Source of the DNA: a virus | Virus record (IMG/VR): IMGVR_UViG_3300032286_000357 | Location: 1 to 23,385 of that record | Length of the DNA stretch: 23,385 nucleotides | Reading direction: 5' to 3' (one strand) | Shown here: piece after piece, positions 7,126 to 21,655 of the stretch | Layout: each line of letters opens with the position of its first letter | Position numbering within the stretch: position 1 is the first letter of the stretch | Translations under genes and position numbers: made by a program | The notes under the pieces: model-generated | What the model saw: the letters and a program-made list of their open reading frames with translations, nothing else | Database searches by the model: none | Told to the model about the DNA's origin: nothing

Positions 7126-10077
7126 TTACACAGAAGTAATTGTCTGCCAAGCAGCGCCGGTATAAACACAAAGTTTTGCAAGCGTGGTGTCAAACACCAT
7201 CAGCCCTGCTGCGGGACTAGCAATCGCATTCTTTTGCGTCGTAGTCATGTTGGGCATGCGCACACCTTTTGTGGTGCTTTGTGCGTCTAAAATTGCAGAG
7301 GCCGAAGGGGCGAGAGTTCCAATACCTACGTTGCCGTTGGAATTAATAACCAGACGAACCGTACCTCCGCCATCGCTTATGACAACCCAGTTACTATTAA
7401 TTCGGGAAATAGGTGCAGCAAGTCCAGTATAGCCACCAAGGATTACATTGCCTACACCTATAGTAATATCGCTACCTGAAAGATTGCCGATAGCTACATT
7501 GCTGTCCCCCGTGCTAGCAGCTAAGGCGTTTGTACCCACAGCGGTATTGCTGTCCCCCGTGCTAGCGAATAAAGCGTTTGTACCCACAGCGGTGTTATCG
7601 GTTCCAATAGTATTGCTATACAAAGATTGGTAGCCTACCGCTACGTTATTATCTGCCGTAGTGTTAAACCGTAAGGCATCACGCCCGAGTGCTACGTTAC
7701 TTGAACCGTTACTGTTAGCGTACAGTGCGTCTGCCCCAAATGCAGAGTTATCGGCCCCTGCACTGTAGTTGTTTAAAGCTTGATAACCGACAGCGGTATT
7801 ATTGTCCCCCGTACTCCCACCACCAACTCCATTTGCCGCTCCTTGCCCTACTGCAGTATTATTACTCCCGGTAGTGTTGTATCGCATGGCCGCATTACCA
7901 ACTGCAGTATTAGAGTCTCCGTCCACACTATTGTATAGCGCGTTAGCCCCAAACGCTGAGTTGCCGTTACCACTAACATTTGAATATAAAGTTTCATCAC
8001 CAAACGCAGAGTTAGCACCTCCCGTGTCATTGGTATACAGCGCAGCAGTACCAACTGCGGTATTGCCGTCACCTGTGTCGTTGGTGTACAGTGCATTGTA
8101 GCCAATAGCAGTATTATTACTACCAGTGCTGTTTAGGTAGAGCGCGGAATCCCCTAGGGCCGAATTATAATCCCCATTGTCATTGGTAAACAGGGCTTCG
8201 TTACCAACAGCGGTATTACTAACACCAGTTGTATTTGCAGTGAGCGCACTATTGCCCAACCCGACGAGAGCACTACCTGAAGTGTTTTCGCGTAGTGCAT
8301 AAGCACCTACAGCTACATTATTATCAGCAGTATTGTTGTACATCGCATCTGTACCCACAGCCACGTTACTGTTTCCGTCAACGGTATATAGCGAGTTGTA
8401 GCCTACGGCAGTATTATTACTACCAGAAGAATTGCTGTACAAAGCGCTGTATCCGAGAGCAGTATTGTTATTGCCTGTGCTATAGCTACCTAAAGATTGG
8501 TAACCCACTGCGGTATTATTACTACCAGTGGTTCCGAGAGGAGTACCGTTTGCCGCTCCGCCCCCTACGGCAGTATTAAAATCCCCACTAGTGGTGTATT
8601 GGCTTGCGTTATTACCAATTGCGACATTGTTATCCCCATTTATGTTACTATTTAGAGAGTATGTCCCAATAGCTATGTTATCATTTCCGCTAGTATTGGC
8701 AGTTAAGGCTTCAAAACCAATAGCGGTATTTTGATTGCCAAGGGTATTATCGGTTAACGCAGTAATCCCTAAAGCTACGTTTTTAGTTCCAGAGGAGTTA
8801 TTTTGTAAAGTATCAGTACCTATTGCAATATTGTTGCTTGCGGTTGTGCTTACGTATAACGCTTGGACACCTATGGCAATATTGTCTGATCCGGTTATAT
8901 TTGCATTTAGCGCTTGGTACCCAACCGCCGTGTTCTGCTGCCCGGTACTGTTAGCCGCCAGATCACCAACTCCCAAGGCGGTATTAGTTGCTTTAGCGCC
9001 CCCACCAAGACCGATGGAGAGTCCTTGTACAGTAGTTGCTCCGGTTATGGTTGGTGTTGCAATTGTTGGGCTTGTGGCTAAAACTACTGCGCCAGTACCC
9101 GTAGCGATACTAAAATCCGTGTACCCAGCTTCCCAGTCAGCGGCAGTTGTGAGGGTTGTACCTATGCAGGTGCACATTACCGTCGTACCGGGTAACACTG
9201 TAATAAGTAGATTACCCCCAGAAGAGTTAACTGTAAGGTCACCTATACTATTGTTGCAGATGTGAAATGTCCATCCCGTCTGCAATGTGCTTGTAACTGG
9301 CAGGGTAATAGTTTGAGTAGTAACCCCCGTAAATAGCTGGTAGTAGCTACTTGTGTTGGTGAAGGTAGTTGTATCCGCTGCAGTAGGGGTTGAAGTAAAC
9401 CCCATCAAGTTTGCCATTGCCCCCGGTGCAGACCCCGAGTTTGTGCCGCCGTTAGCTAAAGGAAGCACTCCAGAGACATCAGTAGCTAAGGCAGCTTTCC
9501 CCCATGCGGGTGGGGCACCAATACCTCCAGACCGCAACACGTTACCAACCGCTACATCAGCTAACCTAGATAGCGCTGTAGCGCTAGAGGCATACAGTAA
9601 ATCACCTATGGTATAGCTACCCTGCCCAGTACCGCCGTTCACTGCAGCAACAACACCCACTATAGATGCTGCATCTACAGTAACCGGTACAAAATCAACA
9701 CCGTTCCATGCTACTACTTTGGTAACGCCTGCAGCAATCGTAACGCCCGTAGTTGGGCCGACACCTCGAATAACGATGCTTTGAGTGCTGGAAGTTTTGT
9801 TGATGACTACGTACGTTTTAGACCGTGCGGGGGCCGTGATGTACCGGGTGGCTGTGCCCCCAGCAGTCCACAAAATTATGGCTTCCCGCGCCTGATTGGT
9901 GGTTAAGGTGGTGGTAGTTAGCGTTACGTCTGCATCCGCACTAAGCGTGGTGGTACCGGCTACCGCAGCGTCAAGCAAGTTAGTGATGGAATTGTTGACC
10001 GTATCACCCCAAGTACCCGAGAGTTCGCCTTGTACTGGAAGGGCAAGACCTAATAATGATGTTGCTGCTGTTGCCAT
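7126..10077 (-). CDS. Tail fibre protein with YadA-head-like repeats
   Basis: This is a 983-residue fibre. The N-terminus MATAATSLLGLALPVQGELSGTWGDTVNNSITNLLD (about 1-36) is a common attachment-domain start in environmental phage fibres. A beta-rich region (60-350) contains the fibre motif NGGTGQ...VLPLANGGTNS. From about residue 362 to 880, around 31 copies of a 17-residue unit (consensus NTAVGYxALxxNxTGxN) resemble the left-handed beta-roll head repeats of trimeric autotransporter adhesins. The C-terminus (GNVGIGTLAPSASAILDAQS, RMPNMTTTQKNAI, LCVYTGAAWQTI) is a typical fibre cap with no S74 peptidase. It is probably a trimeric receptor-binding fibre. AGAGGT precedes the ATG. Confidence 0.85.
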   Translation of the reverse strand: MATAATSLLGLALPVQGELSGTWGDTVNNSITNLLDAAVAGTTTLSADADVTLTTTTLTTNQAREAIILWTAGGTATRYITAPARSKTYVVINKTSSTQSIVIRGVGPTTGVTIAAGVTKVVAWNGVDFVPVTVDAASIVGVVAAVNGGTGQGSYTIGDLLYASSATALSRLADVAVGNVLRSGGIGAPPAWGKAALATDVSGVLPLANGGTNSGSAPGAMANLMGFTSTPTAADTTTFTNTSSYYQLFTGVTTQTITLPVTSTLQTGWTFHICNNSIGDLTVNSSGGNLLITVLPGTTVMCTCIGTTLTTAADWEAGYTDFSIATGTGAVVLATSPTIATPTITGATTVQGLSIGLGGGAKATNTALGVGDLAANSTGQQNTAVGYQALNANITGSDNIAIGVQALYVSTTASNNIAIGTDTLQNNSSGTKNVALGITALTDNTLGNQNTAIGFEALTANTSGNDNIAIGTYSLNSNINGDNNVAIGNNASQYTTSGDFNTAVGGGAANGTPLGTTGSNNTAVGYQSLGSYSTGNNNTALGYSALYSNSSGSNNTAVGYNSLYTVDGNSNVAVGTDAMYNNTADNNVAVGAYALRENTSGSALVGLGNSALTANTTGVSNTAVGNEALFTNDNGDYNSALGDSALYLNSTGSNNTAIGYNALYTNDTGDGNTAVGTAALYTNDTGGANSAFGDETLYSNVSGNGNSAFGANALYNSVDGDSNTAVGNAAMRYNTTGSNNTAVGQGAANGVGGGSTGDNNTAVGYQALNNYSAGADNSAFGADALYANSNGSSNVALGRDALRFNTTADNNVAVGYQSLYSNTIGTDNTAVGTNALFASTGDSNTAVGTNALAASTGDSNVAIGNLSGSDITIGVGNVILGGYTGLAAPISRINSNWVVISDGGGTVRLVINSNGNVGIGTLAPSASAILDAQSTTKGVRMPNMTTTQKNAIASPAAGLMVFDTTLAKLCVYTGAAWQTITSV
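7445..8993 (-). repeat. About 31 tandem 51-bp units in the fibre gene
   Basis: The units code N-[TVIS]-[AV]-[VILF]-G and repeat every 16-20 residues (mostly 17, 51 bp). Two short units at about 7495-7590 are nearly identical at the DNA level (cagcggt...ctgtcccccgtgctag), a sign of recent duplication. Confidence 0.85.
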
Positions 10078-14011: not shown

Positions 14012-14425
14012 TTATGCGCTGCGAATTAGCGCCGTAGTTGAAGTATTGCTTGGCATTGTAACCAAGAACGTGGTTCTTGAGGTTTTGTCCGCCCCAAAAT
14101 CAATGACCGCAATGGCACGATTAGCCTTGCTAGCGTTGTAAATCAATGCGCACCGGGTTGTCAATGCAGCAGTCCAAGACACGTTGTTAAAGTTCACATA
14201 GGCTGTGTAGCCCGAGGTATTTAAAGTCACGCCGGTGAGCGTGTTTCCGCCCGCTGTATATCCAGCCGCTACAACTTCACTTGCTGTGCTATATACCGTC
14301 GTGGTTTCGTTCAAGTTAGCGTTAGCTGTGTACAGGGCGATTTTGAGGGTATCCGTAAGCAGGTTGTGGATGGCCTGATACAGCTCTGCCTTGAACGATG
14401 TGGTTTGGGTTTGAACGATTGCCAT
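14012..14425 (-). CDS. Conserved virion-type protein
   Basis: This is a 137-residue protein beginning MAIVQTQTTSFKAELYQAIH and followed by DTLKIALYTANANLN, EVVAAGYTAGGNTLTGVT, TTRCALIYNASKANRAIAVIDFG and FLVTMPSN. The block IALYTA...EVVAAGYTAGG...ALIYNASK.NRA is widespread in environmental phages beside tail genes and is beta-rich with no catalytic motif. A minor tail or fibre-assembly protein is likely; the family function is not established. It is translationally coupled with the adaptor gene (1-base overlap) and followed by a 9-base gap. Confidence 0.75.
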   Translation of the reverse strand: MAIVQTQTTSFKAELYQAIHNLLTDTLKIALYTANANLNETTTVYSTASEVVAAGYTAGGNTLTGVTLNTSGYTAYVNFNNVSWTAALTTRCALIYNASKANRAIAVIDFGADKTSRTTFLVTMPSNTSTTALIRSA

Positions 14426-15075
14426 TAGTTCACCGCCGTCCTAGTCTGGCCGTCACGGTACGCATCAGCCCGCTGCTTGCCATCACCCAGATTCTTAAGA
14501 AGCGCAATCGACTGTACGTACAAGGTCTGATACAACTGCACAAGGTCTTGGTCACCCTTCATAAAGCGGATAGCTTCAACCAGTGCACCATTAAGCAATG
14601 CGGAGTCAAAGTTGTCACCAAGCCATGTACTACCAGCAGTTACGATGGACTCTGGGTAGTAGTAATAGTGCAGCTCTACAGTGTATGTAGCGTTAGGCGT
14701 AGGACCTAGGATAAACGACAGCTCGTTTACTGCGTTTGATTGTGGCCCAAAAATAGCATAGTGTTTAGGTAGGCCTGTAGCAGTTGCGGTAGGGTACGCT
14801 TCCCGTATAAAGTTTACGTCTTTGTTCAACAGGAACGTGTAGTTGCCGCTACCGTCAATGACCGCAAGGGAATACGTAGATAGGAAGTCATTGGGGGTTG
14901 ACAAATATGGAACATTTGTGGTTACCGTACCCGTCTGATTCTTCCGTAGATTGGCCAACTGAACTGTGTTGTATATACGCTGCTCAGCCTGCTGCGTGAA
15001 CATGGCGTACTCATTCGCCGTGAACGTGTTTTCACAGATGCTAGCGATATTGTTGCACAGCTCAGTGTAGGTCAT
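14425..15075 (-). CDS. Head-to-tail adaptor protein 2 (SU10-adaptor/T7 gp11-like)
   Basis: This is a 216-residue protein that joins head and tail in short-tailed phages. Visible features are an N-terminal helix (MTYTELCNNIASICENTF), FTQQAEQRIYNTVQL (26-40), LRKNQTGTVTTNVPYLSTP with PNDFLSTYSLAVID (41-75), VNFIREAYP (87-95) and LPKHYAIFG (102-110). They are followed by FILGPTPNATYTVELHYYYYP (about 121-141) and a helical C-terminus (LNGALVEAIRFMKGDQD, ALLKNLGDGKQRADAYRDGQ). Length and motif order fit the phage adaptor/tail tubular A-like family. It is the second adaptor-like gene in the cluster. Its stop overlaps the next start (TAATG). Confidence 0.8.
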   Translation of the reverse strand: MTYTELCNNIASICENTFTANEYAMFTQQAEQRIYNTVQLANLRKNQTGTVTTNVPYLSTPNDFLSTYSLAVIDGSGNYTFLLNKDVNFIREAYPTATATGLPKHYAIFGPQSNAVNELSFILGPTPNATYTVELHYYYYPESIVTAGSTWLGDNFDSALLNGALVEAIRFMKGDQDLVQLYQTLYVQSIALLKNLGDGKQRADAYRDGQTRTAVN

Positions 15076-15078
15076 ACG

Positions 15079-15345
15079 TTATGCCATCGGGCCCCGAGAC
15101 ATAGTTCCCTTGGTGGCGCAACCAACCCCACGCATTTTGATACCGGAGGTCTTGATAGGCTCGTCTCCTGCAGACTTACTAAACTGACCTAGACTTACGT
15201 CCATGGTCTCCAGCTTGCTACGGTTTGGGCCTTTGCCCGGATTGGCTTCCACCGTCACAGAACCCCCAGACATTGTGTGAGGTTTGGCATACAAGCTAGC
15301 AGAGCCAACTTCTTTACCCATCATTTTCATGCTTTGTGATGCCAT
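15079..15345 (-). CDS. Small protein with C-terminal GCATKGTM element
   Basis: This is an 88-residue protein. The start has AAGGGG upstream. Met-rich MASQSMKMMGKEVGSASLYA leads into a Gly/Ser/Lys region (GGSVTVEANPGKGPNRSK, LGQFSKSAGDEP). IKTSGIKMRGVGCATKGTM then lies close to the C-terminus (65-82), ending SRGPMA. The GCATKG core matches the element in three neighbours. I recall relatives ending in a similar ATKG...RGPMA tail. No function is established. It sits directly before the second adaptor gene, three bases from its start. Confidence 0.7.
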   Translation of the reverse strand: MASQSMKMMGKEVGSASLYAKPHTMSGGSVTVEANPGKGPNRSKLETMDVSLGQFSKSAGDEPIKTSGIKMRGVGCATKGTMSRGPMA

Positions 15346-15347
15346 GA

Positions 15348-15530
15348 TTACCCCTTTTGGTTATTTACGCGGGCCATGTTGCGGCCAACGGCACGCATAG
15401 CTTTACCGGTTACGCCAGCGGTTTTTTTACCGCCTTTGGGGTTTGCAGCTGTAGGGCCACTGTTAGGAAAAATTTTAGCGTCGGTTTTGCCTTTGCTTGC
15501 AATGCCGTCCGCAGATCGTGTGTATGCCAT
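15348..15530 (-). CDS. Short basic protein with N-terminal GIASKGKT element
   Basis: This is a 60-residue protein with a good AGGAGT ribosome binding site. The first third carries RSADGIASKGKT (5-16), the same element found at the C-termini of proteins at 18126-18551 and 17626-18126. It is followed by PNSGPTAANPKGGKK and a basic, helical C-terminus (GKAMRAVGRNMARVNNQKG). It has no membrane segment or signal peptide. Function is unknown. Size and charge fit a DNA-associated virion or ejected protein, but that is inference. Confidence 0.7.
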   Translation of the reverse strand: MAYTRSADGIASKGKTDAKIFPNSGPTAANPKGGKKTAGVTGKAMRAVGRNMARVNNQKG

Positions 15531-15539
15531 GATTAACTC

Positions 15540-15929
15540 CTATGAAACCGTTACGGCTACCGTACCAACACTCGTTGTCCCAACCAGATAATTTGGAGTC
15601 AAGACAGCATCAAAAAAACTAGCTCCCCCAATAGGGGCCCACCCCCATTGAAAGTCCCGTGAACCCCCAGTTGGGAATCCGCCTACGTTATACCCCGCCT
15701 CTATATACGTTGAGTCCCTACGTGGCTCCCGGACGGCTTGTGGGTCATCTACAGGAAACATACCCAACTGCAACTGCGGCTGATCCGGGTCCCAGCATTG
15801 AGGGCAAACCAAGAGATTGTACGTCTTAGTCTTAATAACTTCCTTGCGTAGCTGTTTTAGTTTGTACCGCTGCCCGCAGCGATCACACTCCGCAATGCTA
15901 TTTTTGCCGGAAGCAAACCGGTTGCCCAT
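15540..15929 (-). CDS. Zinc-ribbon virion-associated protein
   Basis: This is a 129-residue protein. An N-terminal Cys4 zinc ribbon, CDRC (15-18) and CPQC (42-45), is separated by a basic stretch (RYKLKQLRKEVIKTK). Next is DPDQPQLQLGMFPVDDPQAV (47-66), which is strongly conserved in relatives I recall. The C-terminal part is beta-rich and ends in TVAVTVS. The opening MGNRFASGKNSIAECDRCGQ is a typical start for this phage family. It is usually found between adaptor-type genes, so a joint- or tail-associated role is plausible; zinc binding is predicted from the cysteine spacing. It follows the adaptor-like gene without a gap (TAA then ATG). Confidence 0.8.
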   Translation of the reverse strand: MGNRFASGKNSIAECDRCGQRYKLKQLRKEVIKTKTYNLLVCPQCWDPDQPQLQLGMFPVDDPQAVREPRRDSTYIEAGYNVGGFPTGGSRDFQWGWAPIGGASFFDAVLTPNYLVGTTSVGTVAVTVS

Positions 15930-16643
15930 TTAGGTGCCCCCACCAATGAACATTTGACGCGGGATGAATCGGATAGCGGCTTTCTCACGATCTTCACCAG
16001 CAGCTAACTCAAAAGCTTCGTCGTACACCTGCTTGAGCATAGGTACTCGGTCCATAGCCTCAGGAATCTTCAATGCGATGTGATACGCCAAACCCGCAGT
16101 TGCGGCGGGTAAGAAGCGAAAGTTCATATCGGCGGTGTTCACCCCGGTACCCGCATCGTCAATACGGCGCAGACGCCAGTACTTAAACACGTAGTATGGC
16201 TGGGCTACAGTGCCTTGGTTAGGAATTGGCCATACAGTAATCCTAGGGTTATCCCTTAGGCGTTCGATCCAAACTTGTATTGGGCGGGCTTGCTGCAGCT
16301 TGTTGGGGATCGTGGCGTAGGTAGAAACACTAATACGCGTAATGGTCAGGTCGGATTGGGTAGACACGCTTCCATCGCCCGTGCGAATCACATGCTCTAG
16401 CAGGTCGATAGTGTCTGCTGGTAAGTCGTAGGTGGCTTGGCCTTGGATGAGGTTAATGTACCCCTCATCAATCGTCCACATGTTGATGCCCTTGTTCTGC
16501 CATTCGATCGTCATGAGGTTGAACGACCGACGCGCTGTGCGCAAATCATAGCCAGACCGCATCTCTCGGCCTGCACGCTCCCATGCCTCTTCAGCGATTT
16601 CGGTGAAGTCGAGATTAAACGCGGTGGTGCCGGAGACTGCCAT
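15930..16643 (-). CDS. Head-to-tail adaptor-like protein 1
   Basis: This is a 237-residue protein. The helical N-terminal part (LDFTEIAEEAWERAG, YDLRTARRSFNLMTIEWQNK) is followed by NMWTIDEGYINLIQGQATYDL, DLLEHVIRTG, PNKLQQARPIQVWIERL and ITVWPIPNQG, with a helical C-terminus (EAMDRVPMLKQVYDEAFELA). The pattern of a Trp-containing N-terminal helix pair, then a beta region, then a C-terminal helix is typical of head-completion/tail-adaptor proteins of short-tailed phages (gp4/gp11-like). It would bridge portal and nozzle. Assignment to one specific adaptor family is inference. A second adaptor-like gene lies at 14425-15075. Start and preceding stop overlap (TAATG). Confidence 0.65.
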   Translation of the reverse strand: MAVSGTTAFNLDFTEIAEEAWERAGREMRSGYDLRTARRSFNLMTIEWQNKGINMWTIDEGYINLIQGQATYDLPADTIDLLEHVIRTGDGSVSTQSDLTITRISVSTYATIPNKLQQARPIQVWIERLRDNPRITVWPIPNQGTVAQPYYVFKYWRLRRIDDAGTGVNTADMNFRFLPAATAGLAYHIALKIPEAMDRVPMLKQVYDEAFELAAGEDREKAAIRFIPRQMFIGGGT

Positions 16644-16876
16644 TATCTAAACCCTGCTGTTTTCTTTGCGACTGATTTAGGCTGCGCCACAAACTGCTTA
16701 CCTGCCATCTTGCCAGCACGCTTGGCTTTTGTGGTTGCGGCATATTCCGCAGAGGTAAGAGATTGTATAGCTTTCTCGGGCAAATACCTCTCTCCCGTTT
16801 TGGAAGACGGCTTGCCAGACTTAGTGCGCCACTTAGCATCCCCCCAGTCTTTAAGAGATTGTTGTGGGGCTTTCAC
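16643..16876 (-). CDS. Small basic conserved phage protein
   Basis: This is a 77-residue protein starting with GTG one base after the preceding stop; AGGGA, within the preceding codons, serves as ribosome binding site. Motifs are QQSLKDWGDAKWRTKSGKPS (5-24), KTGERYLPEKAIQSLTSAEYA (26-46), then a Lys-rich tail AKRAGKMAGKQFVAQPKSVAKK. The SLKDW...WRTKSGKPS and ERYLPEKAI blocks recur in environmental phages. No function is known. The high pI suggests DNA or RNA binding. Its stop overlaps the start of the adaptor-like gene (TAATG), tying its translation to a structural protein. Confidence 0.75.
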   Translation of the reverse strand: MKAPQQSLKDWGDAKWRTKSGKPSSKTGERYLPEKAIQSLTSAEYAATTKAKRAGKMAGKQFVAQPKSVAKKTAGFR

Positions 16877-16877
16877 A

Positions 16878-17153
16878 TTAGTCCCTGTACCCGCCGCCAG
16901 CAGCTTTATATTTCTTCGCTACGAGCTGTGCCTTACGGGCTGACCATTGCCCTGCGCCAGTACCCTGCGTTGCTGCGGACTTAACTTGGCTCACAATGCG
17001 TTTGCGAAGGCTGGGCTTAGTGTAGTTACCCGCAGCGTTAACCTTGCCACCTTCAGCAAACTGGGTAAAGTCAGTATCGTCGCGGCGAGCCTTCTTAACG
17101 CCGCTAGGCATCTTGGATGGGTTGATATCACCCATACCACGACTGGCTCTCAA
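16878..17153 (-). CDS. Small basic conserved phage protein (QWSARKAQL family)
   Basis: This is a 91-residue basic protein. The TTG at 17153 is preferred because GGAGGT lies five bases upstream and MRASRGMGDINPSKMP is the start I recall for relatives; an ATG seven codons in would lose it. A Gly/Lys region FAEGGKVNAAGNYTKP follows, then a helical, DNA-binding-looking C-terminus with LRKRIVSQVKSAATQG and GQWSARKAQLVAKKYKAAGGGY. The family is widespread and uncharacterised in phages. A nucleic-acid or virion-interior role is inferred from charge. The gene begins inside the HNH stop codon. Confidence 0.75.
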   Translation of the reverse strand: MRASRGMGDINPSKMPSGVKKARRDDTDFTQFAEGGKVNAAGNYTKPSLRKRIVSQVKSAATQGTGAGQWSARKAQLVAKKYKAAGGGYRD

Positions 17154-17629
17154 GATGCACCTCCCCAGCGTGCGCCCGTTACAATCCTACTAATCGCGGG
17201 TTGAGTCATACCGTACTCCTTTGCAAGGTTTGTCTGGCTTATGGTTCCCGTAGCATACTTCTTTTGAATATCAGCCACTTGCACCGCCGTTAATTTTGAT
17301 GCTGGATTGCTTTCTCCAAACTGCGCAACTCCTCGCCCTCTATTTTTTAAAGCCTTATCCCTAGCGTTGTCTGCATTGGTACCAAGAAACAAATGTGTGG
17401 GATTGCAACATTTAGGGTTGTCGCAGCGGTGCAATACGTGTAACTCATGGGATAGTGTTGGCAGTAACCCAACAAGGAACGCTGCTACTCTATGAGCCCC
17501 TTTAGACCCTTCAGAGGTGCGGAACCAACCATACCCACTACGCAGCGTATGTGCGGTCCACTCCCAGCATTGTTCAGGGGAGCCGCTGGAAACTTTGCCC
17601 CAAAACCTAGACTCTATAGTGGAGATCAC
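17150..17629 (-). CDS. HNH homing-type endonuclease with C-terminal helix-turn-helix
   Basis: This is a 159-residue nuclease of the HNH_3 type. A DNA-contact beta region (CWEWTAHTLRSGYGWFRTS, 21-39) leads to AHRVAAFLVG (45-54) and then the active site VLHRCDNPKCCNPTHLFLGT (65-84). There His67 is the likely general base, Cys69/Cys74/Cys75 and His79 are metal-region residues, and NADNARD is the following helix. A C-terminal helix-turn-helix (111-155: KLTAVQVADIQKKY, NLAKEYGMTQPAISRIVTG) resembles NUMOD-type DNA-recognition domains. It probably cuts a homologous site in related phages to spread its own gene. It starts with GTG overlapping the previous stop (GTGA), preceded by AGGGG, and ends overlapping the next TTG start (TTGA). 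Confidence 0.9.
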   Translation of the reverse strand: MISTIESRFWGKVSSGSPEQCWEWTAHTLRSGYGWFRTSEGSKGAHRVAAFLVGLLPTLSHELHVLHRCDNPKCCNPTHLFLGTNADNARDKALKNRGRGVAQFGESNPASKLTAVQVADIQKKYATGTISQTNLAKEYGMTQPAISRIVTGARWGGAS

Positions 17630-18126
17630 TTGCGACCCCTAGCCATACCGCCACCGCACATGACCATCGTACCCTTGGTTTTGCCTTTGGTAGCGCATCC
17701 GTCAGCACGAGAGGAAGCGGAACCGGTGGAGCCGCCCTTGGCCATACGTTTAGGCAATAGGGTGTTGGGGTTCATTGCACCGGAAGACTTCTTAGCAAGT
17801 CGGGCTGTCTCTGCCCTAGTGCTTGCACCGTAAGTATCTTTAGCTGCGCTCTGCTCCGCATTTTTGCGATTCATGCGATCATACGGGGTTTCGTACTTGG
17901 CTTTGGGTGGTGTGGGTTTACGGCCCGGGCCAGAAACGGTTTTACTAGGCGCTGCAGCTGCGGGAGCGGGAGCGGGAGTGCGGCTGACGGGTCGACGCGG
18001 CATGGGCATTGCCTTGGGGCCTGCCTCGGTATCAAGGTTTTCGCCCTTGTTTGCCATCTCCATGGCGTCGTCTTCAACCATAGAGCCGTCTTCGCCGTCG
18101 TAGCGTTTAACTTTGTGTTTAGACAT
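17626..18126 (-). CDS. Disordered basic protein with shared GCATKGKT element
   Basis: This is a 166-residue protein from the ATG at 18126; the upstream in-frame GTG at 18132 is less likely because ATG overlaps the previous stop as TGATG. MSKHKVKRYDGEDGSM opens an acidic patch (EDDAMEMANKGENLDTE). A Pro/Ala-rich linker follows (about 41-75, with PAPAPAAAAP), then a charged helix (YDRMNRKNAEQ), then GGSTGSASSRADGCATKGKT (131-150) and a C-terminal MCGGGMARGRK. It is probably largely unstructured. The DNA encoding the element shares 19 identical bases with the same place in the upstream gene. No function is known. The HNH gene starts inside its stop codon (GTGA). Confidence 0.7.
   Translation of the reverse strand: MSKHKVKRYDGEDGSMVEDDAMEMANKGENLDTEAGPKAMPMPRRPVSRTPAPAPAAAAPSKTVSGPGRKPTPPKAKYETPYDRMNRKNAEQSAAKDTYGASTRAETARLAKKSSGAMNPNTLLPKRMAKGGSTGSASSRADGCATKGKTKGTMVMCGGGMARGRK
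17673..17691. repeat. 19-bp direct repeat, copy 1 (codes GCATKGKT element)
   Basis: Plus-strand ccttggttttgcctttggt is identical here and at 18164-18182. It codes the conserved A-T-K-G-K-T part of the shared element in two adjacent genes, suggesting duplication or gene conversion. Confidence 0.85.
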
Positions 18127-18551
18127 CAGCACATCCCGCCTTTCTTCATGACGATTTGAGTAGCCTTGGTTTTGCCTTTGGTGGCAATGCCATTGGCTGA
18201 GGAGCGGAACGCGCCGCCTTTAGCTAGCTTCAAGGTTGTACCCTTGCCGCCTTTGTGCTCTTGGGAATCATGTTGTTTGAAAGCTTTTTTAATCATGGCT
18301 TTGTCTTGGGCCATGTCAGTCGAGCCGCCTTCAGCCATTTTCTTCCCGCCTTTTTTCTTAGCCATCATTGCCATGAAGCCGGGGTTCATTTTGGAAGCCA
18401 TAGTATCACCACCTTTTGAAAACTTACGGCCCTTGTCGGCTTTGTCAAAGTCTTGCCCCACGGACTGTGGAACTCCTACTTTTTTGGCAAACGCAGGGCT
18501 GTGCGCTATAGCCGCCATGAAATTGTGTTGCTTTTTCGAGCTACTGGGCAC
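18126..18551 (-). CDS. Basic Lys/Gly/Met-rich protein with shared GIATKGKT element
   Basis: This is a 141-residue protein. I chose the GTG at 18551 because it lies one base past the previous stop and gives the recognised start PSSSKKQHNFMAAIAHSP; an in-frame ATG at 18578 would overlap that gene. The N-terminal domain (5-45) is SKKQHNFMAAIAHSPAFAKK, then VGVPQSVGQDFDKADKGRKF, which is conserved in many phages. The rest is low-complexity (MAMMAKKKGGKKMAEGGST) with a helix at 80-95. Near the C-terminus RSSANGIATKGKT (116-128) matches elements in three neighbouring proteins. It ends GGMC. Function is unknown; it could be a basic head-interior or DNA-associated virion protein. Its stop shares one base with the next start (TGATG). 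Confidence 0.7.
   Translation of the reverse strand: MPSSSKKQHNFMAAIAHSPAFAKKVGVPQSVGQDFDKADKGRKFSKGGDTMASKMNPGFMAMMAKKKGGKKMAEGGSTDMAQDKAMIKKAFKQHDSQEHKGGKGTTLKLAKGGAFRSSANGIATKGKTKATQIVMKKGGMC
18164..18182. repeat. 19-bp direct repeat, copy 2
   Basis: This is the second identical copy of ccttggttttgcctttggt, in the upstream gene. The flanks differ, so identity is confined to the element. Confidence 0.85.
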
Positions 18552-18736: not shown

Positions 18737-18982
18737 TCAGCACTTCCAAGCTTTGAGTGATTTGTTAATCCGGCTGTTTGGGTCTTTCGCGGTCTTCTCG
18801 CTGGTGAGTTTCTTCTTCATCCCACTCATCCTCGCGCAAAAAGAGTCGCGCCTGCTGCCGCCTTCCGGCTGGGGAGGCTTCAAGTTCATCCCTTGTTTTT
18901 TGGCTGACGCGCGCCCCTTGGCGTTCAAGCCACCCTCGGGGTTTTTGCCTTCCTTGCGAGTCCATGCTGGTGACTTAGCCAT
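18737..18982 (-). CDS. Small basic conserved phage protein (DUF6321-like)
   Basis: This is an 81-residue basic protein. I chose the ATG at 18982 rather than the longer upstream frame because MAKSPAWTRKEGKNPEGGLN is the conserved start of a widespread uncharacterised phage family that I believe is DUF6321; the name is from memory. Motifs in order are AWTRKEGKNPEGGLNAKGRA (7-26), NLKPPQPEGGS (33-43), RRDSFCARMSGM (44-55) and a C-terminal RINKSLKAWKC. Length and order fit the family. The gene overlaps the end of the preceding one by eight bases. The high charge suggests nucleic-acid or capsid-lumen contact, but no function is established. Confidence 0.8.
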   Translation of the reverse strand: MAKSPAWTRKEGKNPEGGLNAKGRASAKKQGMNLKPPQPEGGSRRDSFCARMSGMKKKLTSEKTAKDPNSRINKSLKAWKC

Positions 18983-19268
18983 AAAACACCGTAATACCAG
19001 TAACAGAGCCAACACTGAATGTGAGATACAGCCCAGTAGAAGCCAAGATACCTTCACCGGGGATTATCATAGAAAACGTATTAGGCGTACCAAGGCTCGC
19101 TATGTCCATTGTGTATAGCACGGCTGCCGTGGAACTACCATCCCTAATTTCAAAGGTTGCAGCGGTACTTGCTTTGGGGCTGACAATAAACCCTTTAAAG
19201 CGTGTGCGACCGCTATAGTAAGACCCTGCTGCACTCAAATGCGCTGCCTTAACATCAGTCTGTTGCAT
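18975..19268 (-). CDS. Small virion-type protein
   Basis: This is a 97-residue protein with alternating beta strands: RFKGFIVSPKASTAATFEIRD, then VLYTMDIASLG, FSMIIPGEGI and LYLTFSVGSVTGITVFYG. It has no membrane segment. It looks like a compact single-domain structural protein of the kind found beside the preceding gene in environmental phages. AGGAG precedes the ATG. Its stop codon lies inside the start of the next gene (ATGGCTAA), so the two are translationally coupled. The precise function is unknown; a head-surface or adaptor-associated role is possible. Confidence 0.7.
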   Translation of the reverse strand: MQQTDVKAAHLSAAGSYYSGRTRFKGFIVSPKASTAATFEIRDGSSTAAVLYTMDIASLGTPNTFSMIIPGEGILASTGLYLTFSVGSVTGITVFYG

Positions 19269-20743: not shown

Positions 20744-21655
20744 TTAAGACGAACCGGGCGATCCAAAGACACCCAGAGGGTCAGACACGCCGAACGAATA
20801 ACGCTCGCGTGCTTTGTAGCGGACGTTTCCGGTATCAAAATCCCCATCCATGGAATTTGCCAAAGGCGTACGGACAAAGTGCTTCAAACCGTTAGGCACG
20901 TCAGTGGTCAGGAACCAACCGTTGGTGTCGGTCAAGAAGTGGTTAACGGTGTAACCTTCAGGGATCGAACCGTTATTCTTCAACGCGTTAATGTCGTTGT
21001 CGGTGGTACCAACGCGCAGTTCTGTTTCCAGCAGGCGGGTAGCGACGAACATCAAAGCAGGAGGAATAATCAGTTTCTTGGGCTTAGCAGCGATCAGCAA
21101 ACCGCGCTCATCCGTCCAAGCAGCAATCTGAATCACAGCGTTTTCCAACGAAGTTTCATTCAGGTCAGCGCCAGTGGTAGGACGATTGCTGTTGGTGCCG
21201 CCGTTGACCAAGGGGTGAGCCGTGGAGAACAGGGATACGCCGTCACCATAAGTTACAGAAGCAGTGAAGCCGTTGTTCAAAATGGCAGCAGCCTTGACCT
21301 GCTTGGTGTAAGCCATACCACGAGCCAAAGCTTTGGTGTAGCGGCTGGAGAGGCTGTCATACAAGTTATCTTCCACGGCCTCTTCGGTGATGGAGAAGCC
21401 CATCGCAATGGTTTCGTGGTTGTAACGTGCAGTCCAAGCTTCTTGCGCATTGTCATAAGCAATGGCGGAGCCCTCGTTCTTCACCGGAGCGGCGGAGAAT
21501 CCAGACAGCTTGGTTTCCTCTTCAAAGCTACGCTCCGAAGTTTCGGTTTCGTAGATTTCTTTGTGCTCTTCGCCGTAGCGGGCATACTCCAGACCAAACA
21601 AAGCGTTCAGACCGGGGAGCAACTCTTTAAGTAGTTGTGCGCGTGAAATAGCCAT
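20744..21655 (-). CDS. Major capsid protein (Mu gpT-like type)
   Basis: This 303-residue protein forms the head shell. The pattern matches phage major head proteins of the gpT-like group. An N-terminal helix (LLKELLPGLNALFGLEY) is followed by an acidic E-loop-like segment (YETETSERSFEEETK), a central block with NHETIAMGFSITEEAVEDNLYD, and the helix SSRYTKALARGMAYTKQVKAA. After that come FSTAHPLVNGG, the strand KPKKLIIPPALMFVATRLLET, a hydrophobic region GWFLTTDVPNGLKHFVRTPL, and the C-terminal RYSFGVSDPLGVFGSPGSS. Length and order suit the family. The ATG has AAGGAG eight bases upstream, as expected for a strongly expressed gene. A strong intrinsic terminator follows the stop codon. HK97-fold membership follows from the family and was not tested here. 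Confidence 0.9.
   Translation of the reverse strand: MAISRAQLLKELLPGLNALFGLEYARYGEEHKEIYETETSERSFEEETKLSGFSAAPVKNEGSAIAYDNAQEAWTARYNHETIAMGFSITEEAVEDNLYDSLSSRYTKALARGMAYTKQVKAAAILNNGFTASVTYGDGVSLFSTAHPLVNGGTNSNRPTTGADLNETSLENAVIQIAAWTDERGLLIAAKPKKLIIPPALMFVATRLLETELRVGTTDNDINALKNNGSIPEGYTVNHFLTDTNGWFLTTDVPNGLKHFVRTPLANSMDGDFDTGNVRYKARERYSFGVSDPLGVFGSPGSS

Follow-up and report, generated by a model that had tools for sequence, protein, structure and literature searches.

The window analysed here, meaning the whole stretch, is a 23.4-kb virus record (IMGVR_UViG_3300032286_000357, positions 1 to 23,385) in which the genes discussed below all lie on the minus strand: a partial scaffold-like gene, the major capsid gene, small genes, an SU10-type adaptor gene, a tail/virion gene and long fibre-like genes. 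Among the small proteins are three that carry a short peptide element, hereafter called the tag. A 141-residue protein (18126..18551) consists of a 44-residue N-terminal domain (18420..18551), a basic middle part of low model confidence and a C-terminal tag, RSSANGIATKGKT (residues 116-128; 18168..18206). The tag is also found as SSRADGCATKGKT (residues 138-150; 17677..17715) in a 166-residue protein (17626..18126) that is basic and, by AlphaFold2 prediction, mostly disordered, and as RSADGIASKGKT (residues 5-16; 15483..15518) at the N-terminus of a 60-residue protein (15348..15530) located between the adaptor and tail genes. An 88-residue protein (15079..15345) bears a look-alike C-terminus, MRGVGCATKGTM (15100-15135). 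The cluster of tagged genes is bounded upstream by the major capsid protein (20744..21655), which also served as the marker of phage lineage; the adaptor protein (SU10_adaptor; 15930..16643) forms the downstream border of the main cluster, and a tail/virion structural protein (phrog_2941; 14425..15075) forms its outer border. Starts of open reading frames (ORFs) are simple first-start calls throughout.

The tag is about 20-25 residues long, with an approximate consensus of GG-x(3-8)-[SA]-x-R-[AG]-[DN]-G-[IC]-A-x-[RK]-G-K-T-[RK]-G and invariants G-G...[DN]-G-x-A-x-[RK]-G-x-T. Among the 28 predicted proteins of the window, the core G[CI]A[TS]KG was observed in four, compared with a mean of 0.0018 per shuffle, and the long form [DN]G[CI]A[TS]KGKT in three, compared with none in any of 5000 shuffles. 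A profile of 31 tag segments (A1), taken from relatives and from Planktothrix phage Pag-Yong1, recovered the window copies in the 166-residue (E 3e-17), 141-residue (E 1e-13) and 60-residue (E 1e-7; unrounded, 1.2e-7) proteins. Orthologues of the first two proteins are inside this profile; as the 60-residue family is outside it, the third match constitutes an independent test. Family membership here refers to the first pass, the 150 sequences that a second pass gathered through the tag itself having been set aside.

A preliminary description of this DNA had proposed that four neighbouring proteins share the element, C-terminal in three and N-terminal in one, and that two of the genes have 19 identical bases in common. 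All four peptides lie at the residues and coordinates it gave, and the 19 bases, ACCAAAGGCAAAACCAAGG, are present in the 141- and 166-residue genes. The profile supports the 141-, 166- and 60-residue proteins, including the N-terminal placement in the last, and does not extend to the 88-residue protein, whose copy matches at E 0.047. The 129 homologues of that protein have a median score of 0.8 bits, equal to background, with only one above the best reversed-ORF control, and profile-profile comparison of the family with the tag (hhalign) returned a probability of 10.6%, leaving the protein unsupported as a fourth copy. The family instead has a fixed C-terminus of its own, xTxGIKxRGTGAATKGxMARGPMA. 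As an exact GCATKG core is improbable by chance, a distant link is possible, and this C-terminus could be a distant, unproven variant of the tag. By profile evidence, the tag copies in the window are three rather than four, with two C-terminal, one N-terminal and one further C-terminal look-alike.

With the 166-residue protein as query, 80 loci were obtained from viral contigs, and in most of them conservation was highest in the tag alone. Each search comprised the best 80 matches, which leaves room for rare occurrences in other viruses, and many loci presumably come from similar freshwater samples, judging from the collection. A simple tag pattern gave 243 matches in forward sequences and one in reversed sequences across these loci (L002-L081) and the window, and 249 and none, respectively, across 81 further loci picked by the tag profile. 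At E<1e-3, the profile detected 460 tagged ORFs in 160 related fragments (mean 2.9 per fragment), with one tagged ORF in 10 loci, two in 51, three in 57, four in 33 and five in 9. Several unrelated tagged proteins per genome are thus the usual state, with most loci carrying two or more. Of the two outcomes that the preliminary description had named as refuting, a single copy per genome elsewhere was not the pattern found, and with reversed controls near zero generic Lys/Gly composition does not account for the matches. The tag resides within 25 residues of the C-terminus in 434 of the 460 ORFs and is N-terminal in about 20. Whole contigs of 44-65 kb contain 1-5 copies, and where there is more than one they form a single cluster within about 0.3-3 kb. 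Capsid, adaptor and tail genes are all visible in 61 loci, and there every tagged ORF (182/182) falls between capsid and tail, 172 in the capsid-adaptor interval and 10 in the adaptor-tail interval, and none of the 182 lies on the opposite strand or outside the capsid-tail interval.

The proteins that carry the tag are otherwise highly diverse. With the tag removed, their bodies form about 89 sequence clusters, 69 of them single, a rough count as it was obtained by single linkage on low-complexity sequence. When 85 proteins, each from a different cluster, are aligned, only the tag lines up (mean column identity 8%), with G75, G76, D86, G87, A89, G92 and T94 of the alignment invariant. Pfam and PHROGs searches recognised almost none of the bodies beyond a DUF6321 protein and a phiKZ165.1-like domain. 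The peptide GIAQRGKT formally fits GxxxxGK[ST], so that a Walker A (P-loop) motif had to be considered; in real copies, however, the lysine is replaced by arginine, leucine or histidine (GRT, GLT, GHT), no hydrophobic strand precedes the motif, the proteins are short and mostly predicted to be disordered, and none of the 85 matches an NTPase family. With a non-conserved lysine and no alpha/beta NTPase fold, we regard the P-loop reading as ruled out, its probability being next to nil.

The clearest view of the tag as a separable unit comes from the DUF6321 (PF19846) protein, whose family model stops just ahead of the tag. Fifty-five orthologues end flush at INKSL-R/K-AW-x-C, and 18 relatives extend just past this end by exactly 22-23 tag residues, one of them in the degenerate form GGGCEVRGKTKG. 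The window member (18737..19057, ending ...INKSLKAWKC) is untagged and of the flush-ending kind. On the tree of this short protein, at least 8 changes are needed, of which well-supported branches compel 2. As 22-23 residues are present or absent on one and the same orthologue, the tag is modular, and together with the unrelated tagged proteins per genome and the capsid-tail confinement this bears out the earlier suggestion of a portable tag that has moved between small virion-region genes. Several families of large phage proteins (phrog_3477, 727, 30733, 28131 and 10346) also have DUF6321 as a module at the C-terminus.

Constraint on the tag can be followed through pairs of orthologues, in which body identity drops from 0.7 to 0.2 with tag identity holding at about 0.72, and in which the tag is more conserved than the body in 96% of cases. 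The core G, A and G are invariant in 213 of 213 copies and are encoded by all synonymous codons, which indicates constraint at the protein level. At one locus (L185), two unrelated proteins have the same unusual tag end, VTRGDGACMKGHTKGRMV, encoded with many synonymous differences, as would be expected of a shared partner. Genome-specific tag dialects were not seen in the freshwater set (identity 0.685 vs 0.692). A GG[IC]Ex[KR]GKTKG dialect occurs beside the DGIA/DGCA form in the same genome at L214 and again at L234, and at L161 this dialect is on the DUF6321 protein. The same data bear on whether the tagged proteins are ordinary paralogues, descended by duplication from one ancestral tagged gene whose body diverged or was replaced, with no common partner. 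Some bodies do cluster into families, tag copies are near neighbours, and synonymous-codon identity is slightly higher within genomes (0.465 vs 0.434). Against simple paralogy stand an exact 22-23 residue gain or absence on one orthologue, the attachment of the tag to bodies whose known domains differ (DUF6321, phiKZ165.1-like), and tag conservation whatever the divergence of the body, which needs selection. We consider it improbable.

To place the tag among phage lineages, the window was compared with isolated phages through its capsid, which is 73% identical to that of Planktothrix phage Pag-Yong1, 65% to that of Pelagibacter phage HTVC023P and 64% to that of phage DSL-LC04. The major capsid and adaptor genes are homologous and in matching order, placing the window in the Pag-Yong1/HTVC023P capsid lineage; Pag-Yong1, MinM2 and Pra-JY27, together with HTVC023P and DSL-LC04, belong to this same capsid and adaptor lineage and have a gene order similar to that of the window. 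Pag-Yong1 has one tag copy, on a 308-residue protein (L086:35313-36239). The profile finds no copy in HTVC023P, CRP-901 or DSL-LC04, and a C-terminal pattern finds none in the regions read of HTVC027P and QDWS535. In a capsid-anchored sample, in which loci were chosen independently of the tag, the tag was present in 3/3 loci at 83-96% capsid identity to the window, 11/33 at 77-83%, 0/5 at 70-77% and 1/71 at 50-70%. Queries with two tag dialects (GGIE and DGCC) retrieved 144 new loci, 144/144 of which had the markers of the lineage. Across cellular genomes, in which 84,980 species of bacteria and archaea were represented by one genome each (257 Gb), 57 raw pattern matches reduced to 5 confirmed cases, 4 on contigs with capsid or adaptor genes of the tagged lineage and the fifth (L090) at an apparently chimeric contig end. 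A tblastn search of isolated phages with a 38-residue tag consensus returned a single, valueless match (E=7). In the loci sampled, the tag is restricted to one capsid/adaptor lineage. This tight tie over many samples, along with the head gene interval, makes it highly unlikely that the partner of the tag is a membrane component or host factor and not a part of the virion. In favour of such a partner is that isolated untagged relatives infect Pelagibacter, Roseobacter and Alcaligenes and the tagged isolate is a Planktothrix phage.

The tag by itself is disordered in AlphaFold2, and in the 141- and 166-residue models the tag and its flanks have low predicted local distance difference test (pLDDT) scores and lack strands. 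Tagged bodies are mostly predicted to be disordered, and the 89 cluster representatives are all net positive, with a hydrophobic fraction of about 0.15. The confident part of the 141-residue model is its 44-residue N-terminal domain, a three-helix fold with 72% identity to phiKZ gp165.1 that is also found at the N-termini of large virion structural families (phrog_22033, phrog_25121). Matches of this domain in jumbo phages (phrog_16759) span only residues 1-43, leaving the tag outside, and its occurrence across these phages marks it as a second portable module. A fold search with the 141-residue model returned nothing from the PDB at E below 0.001; from a viral library it returned mainly other phage proteins that have the N-terminal domain.

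Such composition raises the alternative that the tag is a basic Gly/Lys/Arg loop that binds or condenses nucleic acid, with disordered basic proteins coating phage DNA or RNA and no specific protein partner. In its favour, every tagged body is basic and poor in hydrophobic residues, and the tag, disordered on its own, contributes several basic residues. Its best-conserved positions, however, are the non-basic D/N, G, A, G and T, with the lysine varying among GKT, GRT, GLT and GHT; a generic binder should not keep to one capsid lineage and one capsid-tail interval; and in relatives untagged basic proteins fill the same interval. We therefore regard nucleic-acid binding as unlikely, though it is the strongest of the competing explanations.

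The closest functional parallel is with phage T4, whose propeptides are cut by gp21. In T4, a capsid targeting sequence (CTS) of about 10 residues directs into the head both small basic internal proteins and foreign proteins to which it has been fused (PMC7697877, PMC9026906), and in T4 relatives CTS-like ends occur on additional basic proteins (PMC9026906, PMC7697877). Like the CTS of IPI, IPII and IPIII, a shared peptide of about 10-20 residues, the tag is a short, movable peptide on several small basic, otherwise divergent proteins encoded by variable genes. The two also differ: the T4 CTS is N-terminal, unlike the mostly C-terminal tag; it is removed by the head protease, whereas no protease was recognised among the scanned portal-to-capsid genes of the relative L102; and its role was proven by fusions, whereas that of the tag is a proposal. 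We judge the two to have no sequence resemblance, and their head lineages are unrelated. With its mostly C-terminal position, and with no protease recognised near it, the tag is not classed as a CTS, though by analogy it may act like one.

The T4 comparison also suggests that the tag might be a processing or removal signal, cleaved for instance at the conserved Gly-Gly during head maturation. A Gly-Gly pair stands ahead of the tag in 85 of 85 aligned proteins, and T4 targeting peptides are likewise cleaved (PMC9026906). Opposing this, the L102 portal-to-capsid region consists of portal, GroES and capsid genes, two genes whose only matches are to families without a known function and two that have no match, with no head protease recognised among those scanned, and the N-terminal copy of the 60-residue family lacks the Gly-Gly. 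Processing appears a little less probable still than simple paralogy.

We propose for the element the role of a short linear tag, portable between proteins, for docking or packaging, similar in action to the T4 CTS and unrelated to it in sequence, a reading that we place at an even balance. The tag would bind one conserved head component of the lineage (capsid interior, scaffold, portal or adaptor), folding upon binding. In this way basic proteins, from a set that changes fast, would be brought into the assembling particle or onto it. The basic load could aid DNA condensation, head assembly or ejection, by a mechanism that resembles that of T4 and would have evolved separately. Several observations weigh against this proposal. 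Many relatives in the capsid lineage have no tag, as the 1/71 and 11/33 fractions above show, so that the tag must be dispensable for heads of this type. Genes for a 281-residue protein, a 150-residue protein, the cement protein and the adaptor fail to separate tagged from untagged loci, so that none of the capsid-region genes tested points to a partner. In addition, PDB sequence searches with the tag, capsid and adaptor gave nothing useful, the content of Lys, Gly and Arg would suit nucleic-acid binding equally well, and in the 60-residue family the tag is N-terminal and the protein lies beyond the adaptor.

A broader reading, which we advance tentatively and hold at somewhat less than even, is an undescribed virion addressing code, in which the C-terminal peptide would be the common plug of one head lineage, the gain of about 23 codons would turn any gene of the hypervariable cluster into virion cargo, and the dialects DGIA, GGIE and DGCC would be read by one head component. 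The core tag sequences tried had no match in the phage literature searched, and no virion proteomics of a tagged phage was found in it. If the tag does direct proteins to the particle, virion cargo could be predicted from sequence by a simple rule across aquatic phages of a large and mostly uncultured group, in which small proteins are without annotation, and the targeting principle of T4 would have a second, independent example. Nature has itself made the question testable, with a 23-codon addition present or absent on one protein.

Outside the tag itself, ends of the RGxG[AC]Ax[KR]G type, similar to the C-terminus of the 88-residue protein, were observed on two HTVC023P proteins and one DSL-LC04 protein. 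These peptides (HTVC023P gp32 and gp51, and that of DSL-LC04), with cores GAA[VI]RG or GCATRG, look like the 88-residue family and were not matched by the tag profile; on sequence likeness, ends of this type are perhaps a second tag family. Within the tagged gene cluster of the window, an HNH endonuclease gene (17150-17629) may be part of the reason for gene turnover at this site. Further along the same strand, positions 7126-10077 encode a very long repetitive protein of tail-fibre type with NTAxGxxAL-like repeats.

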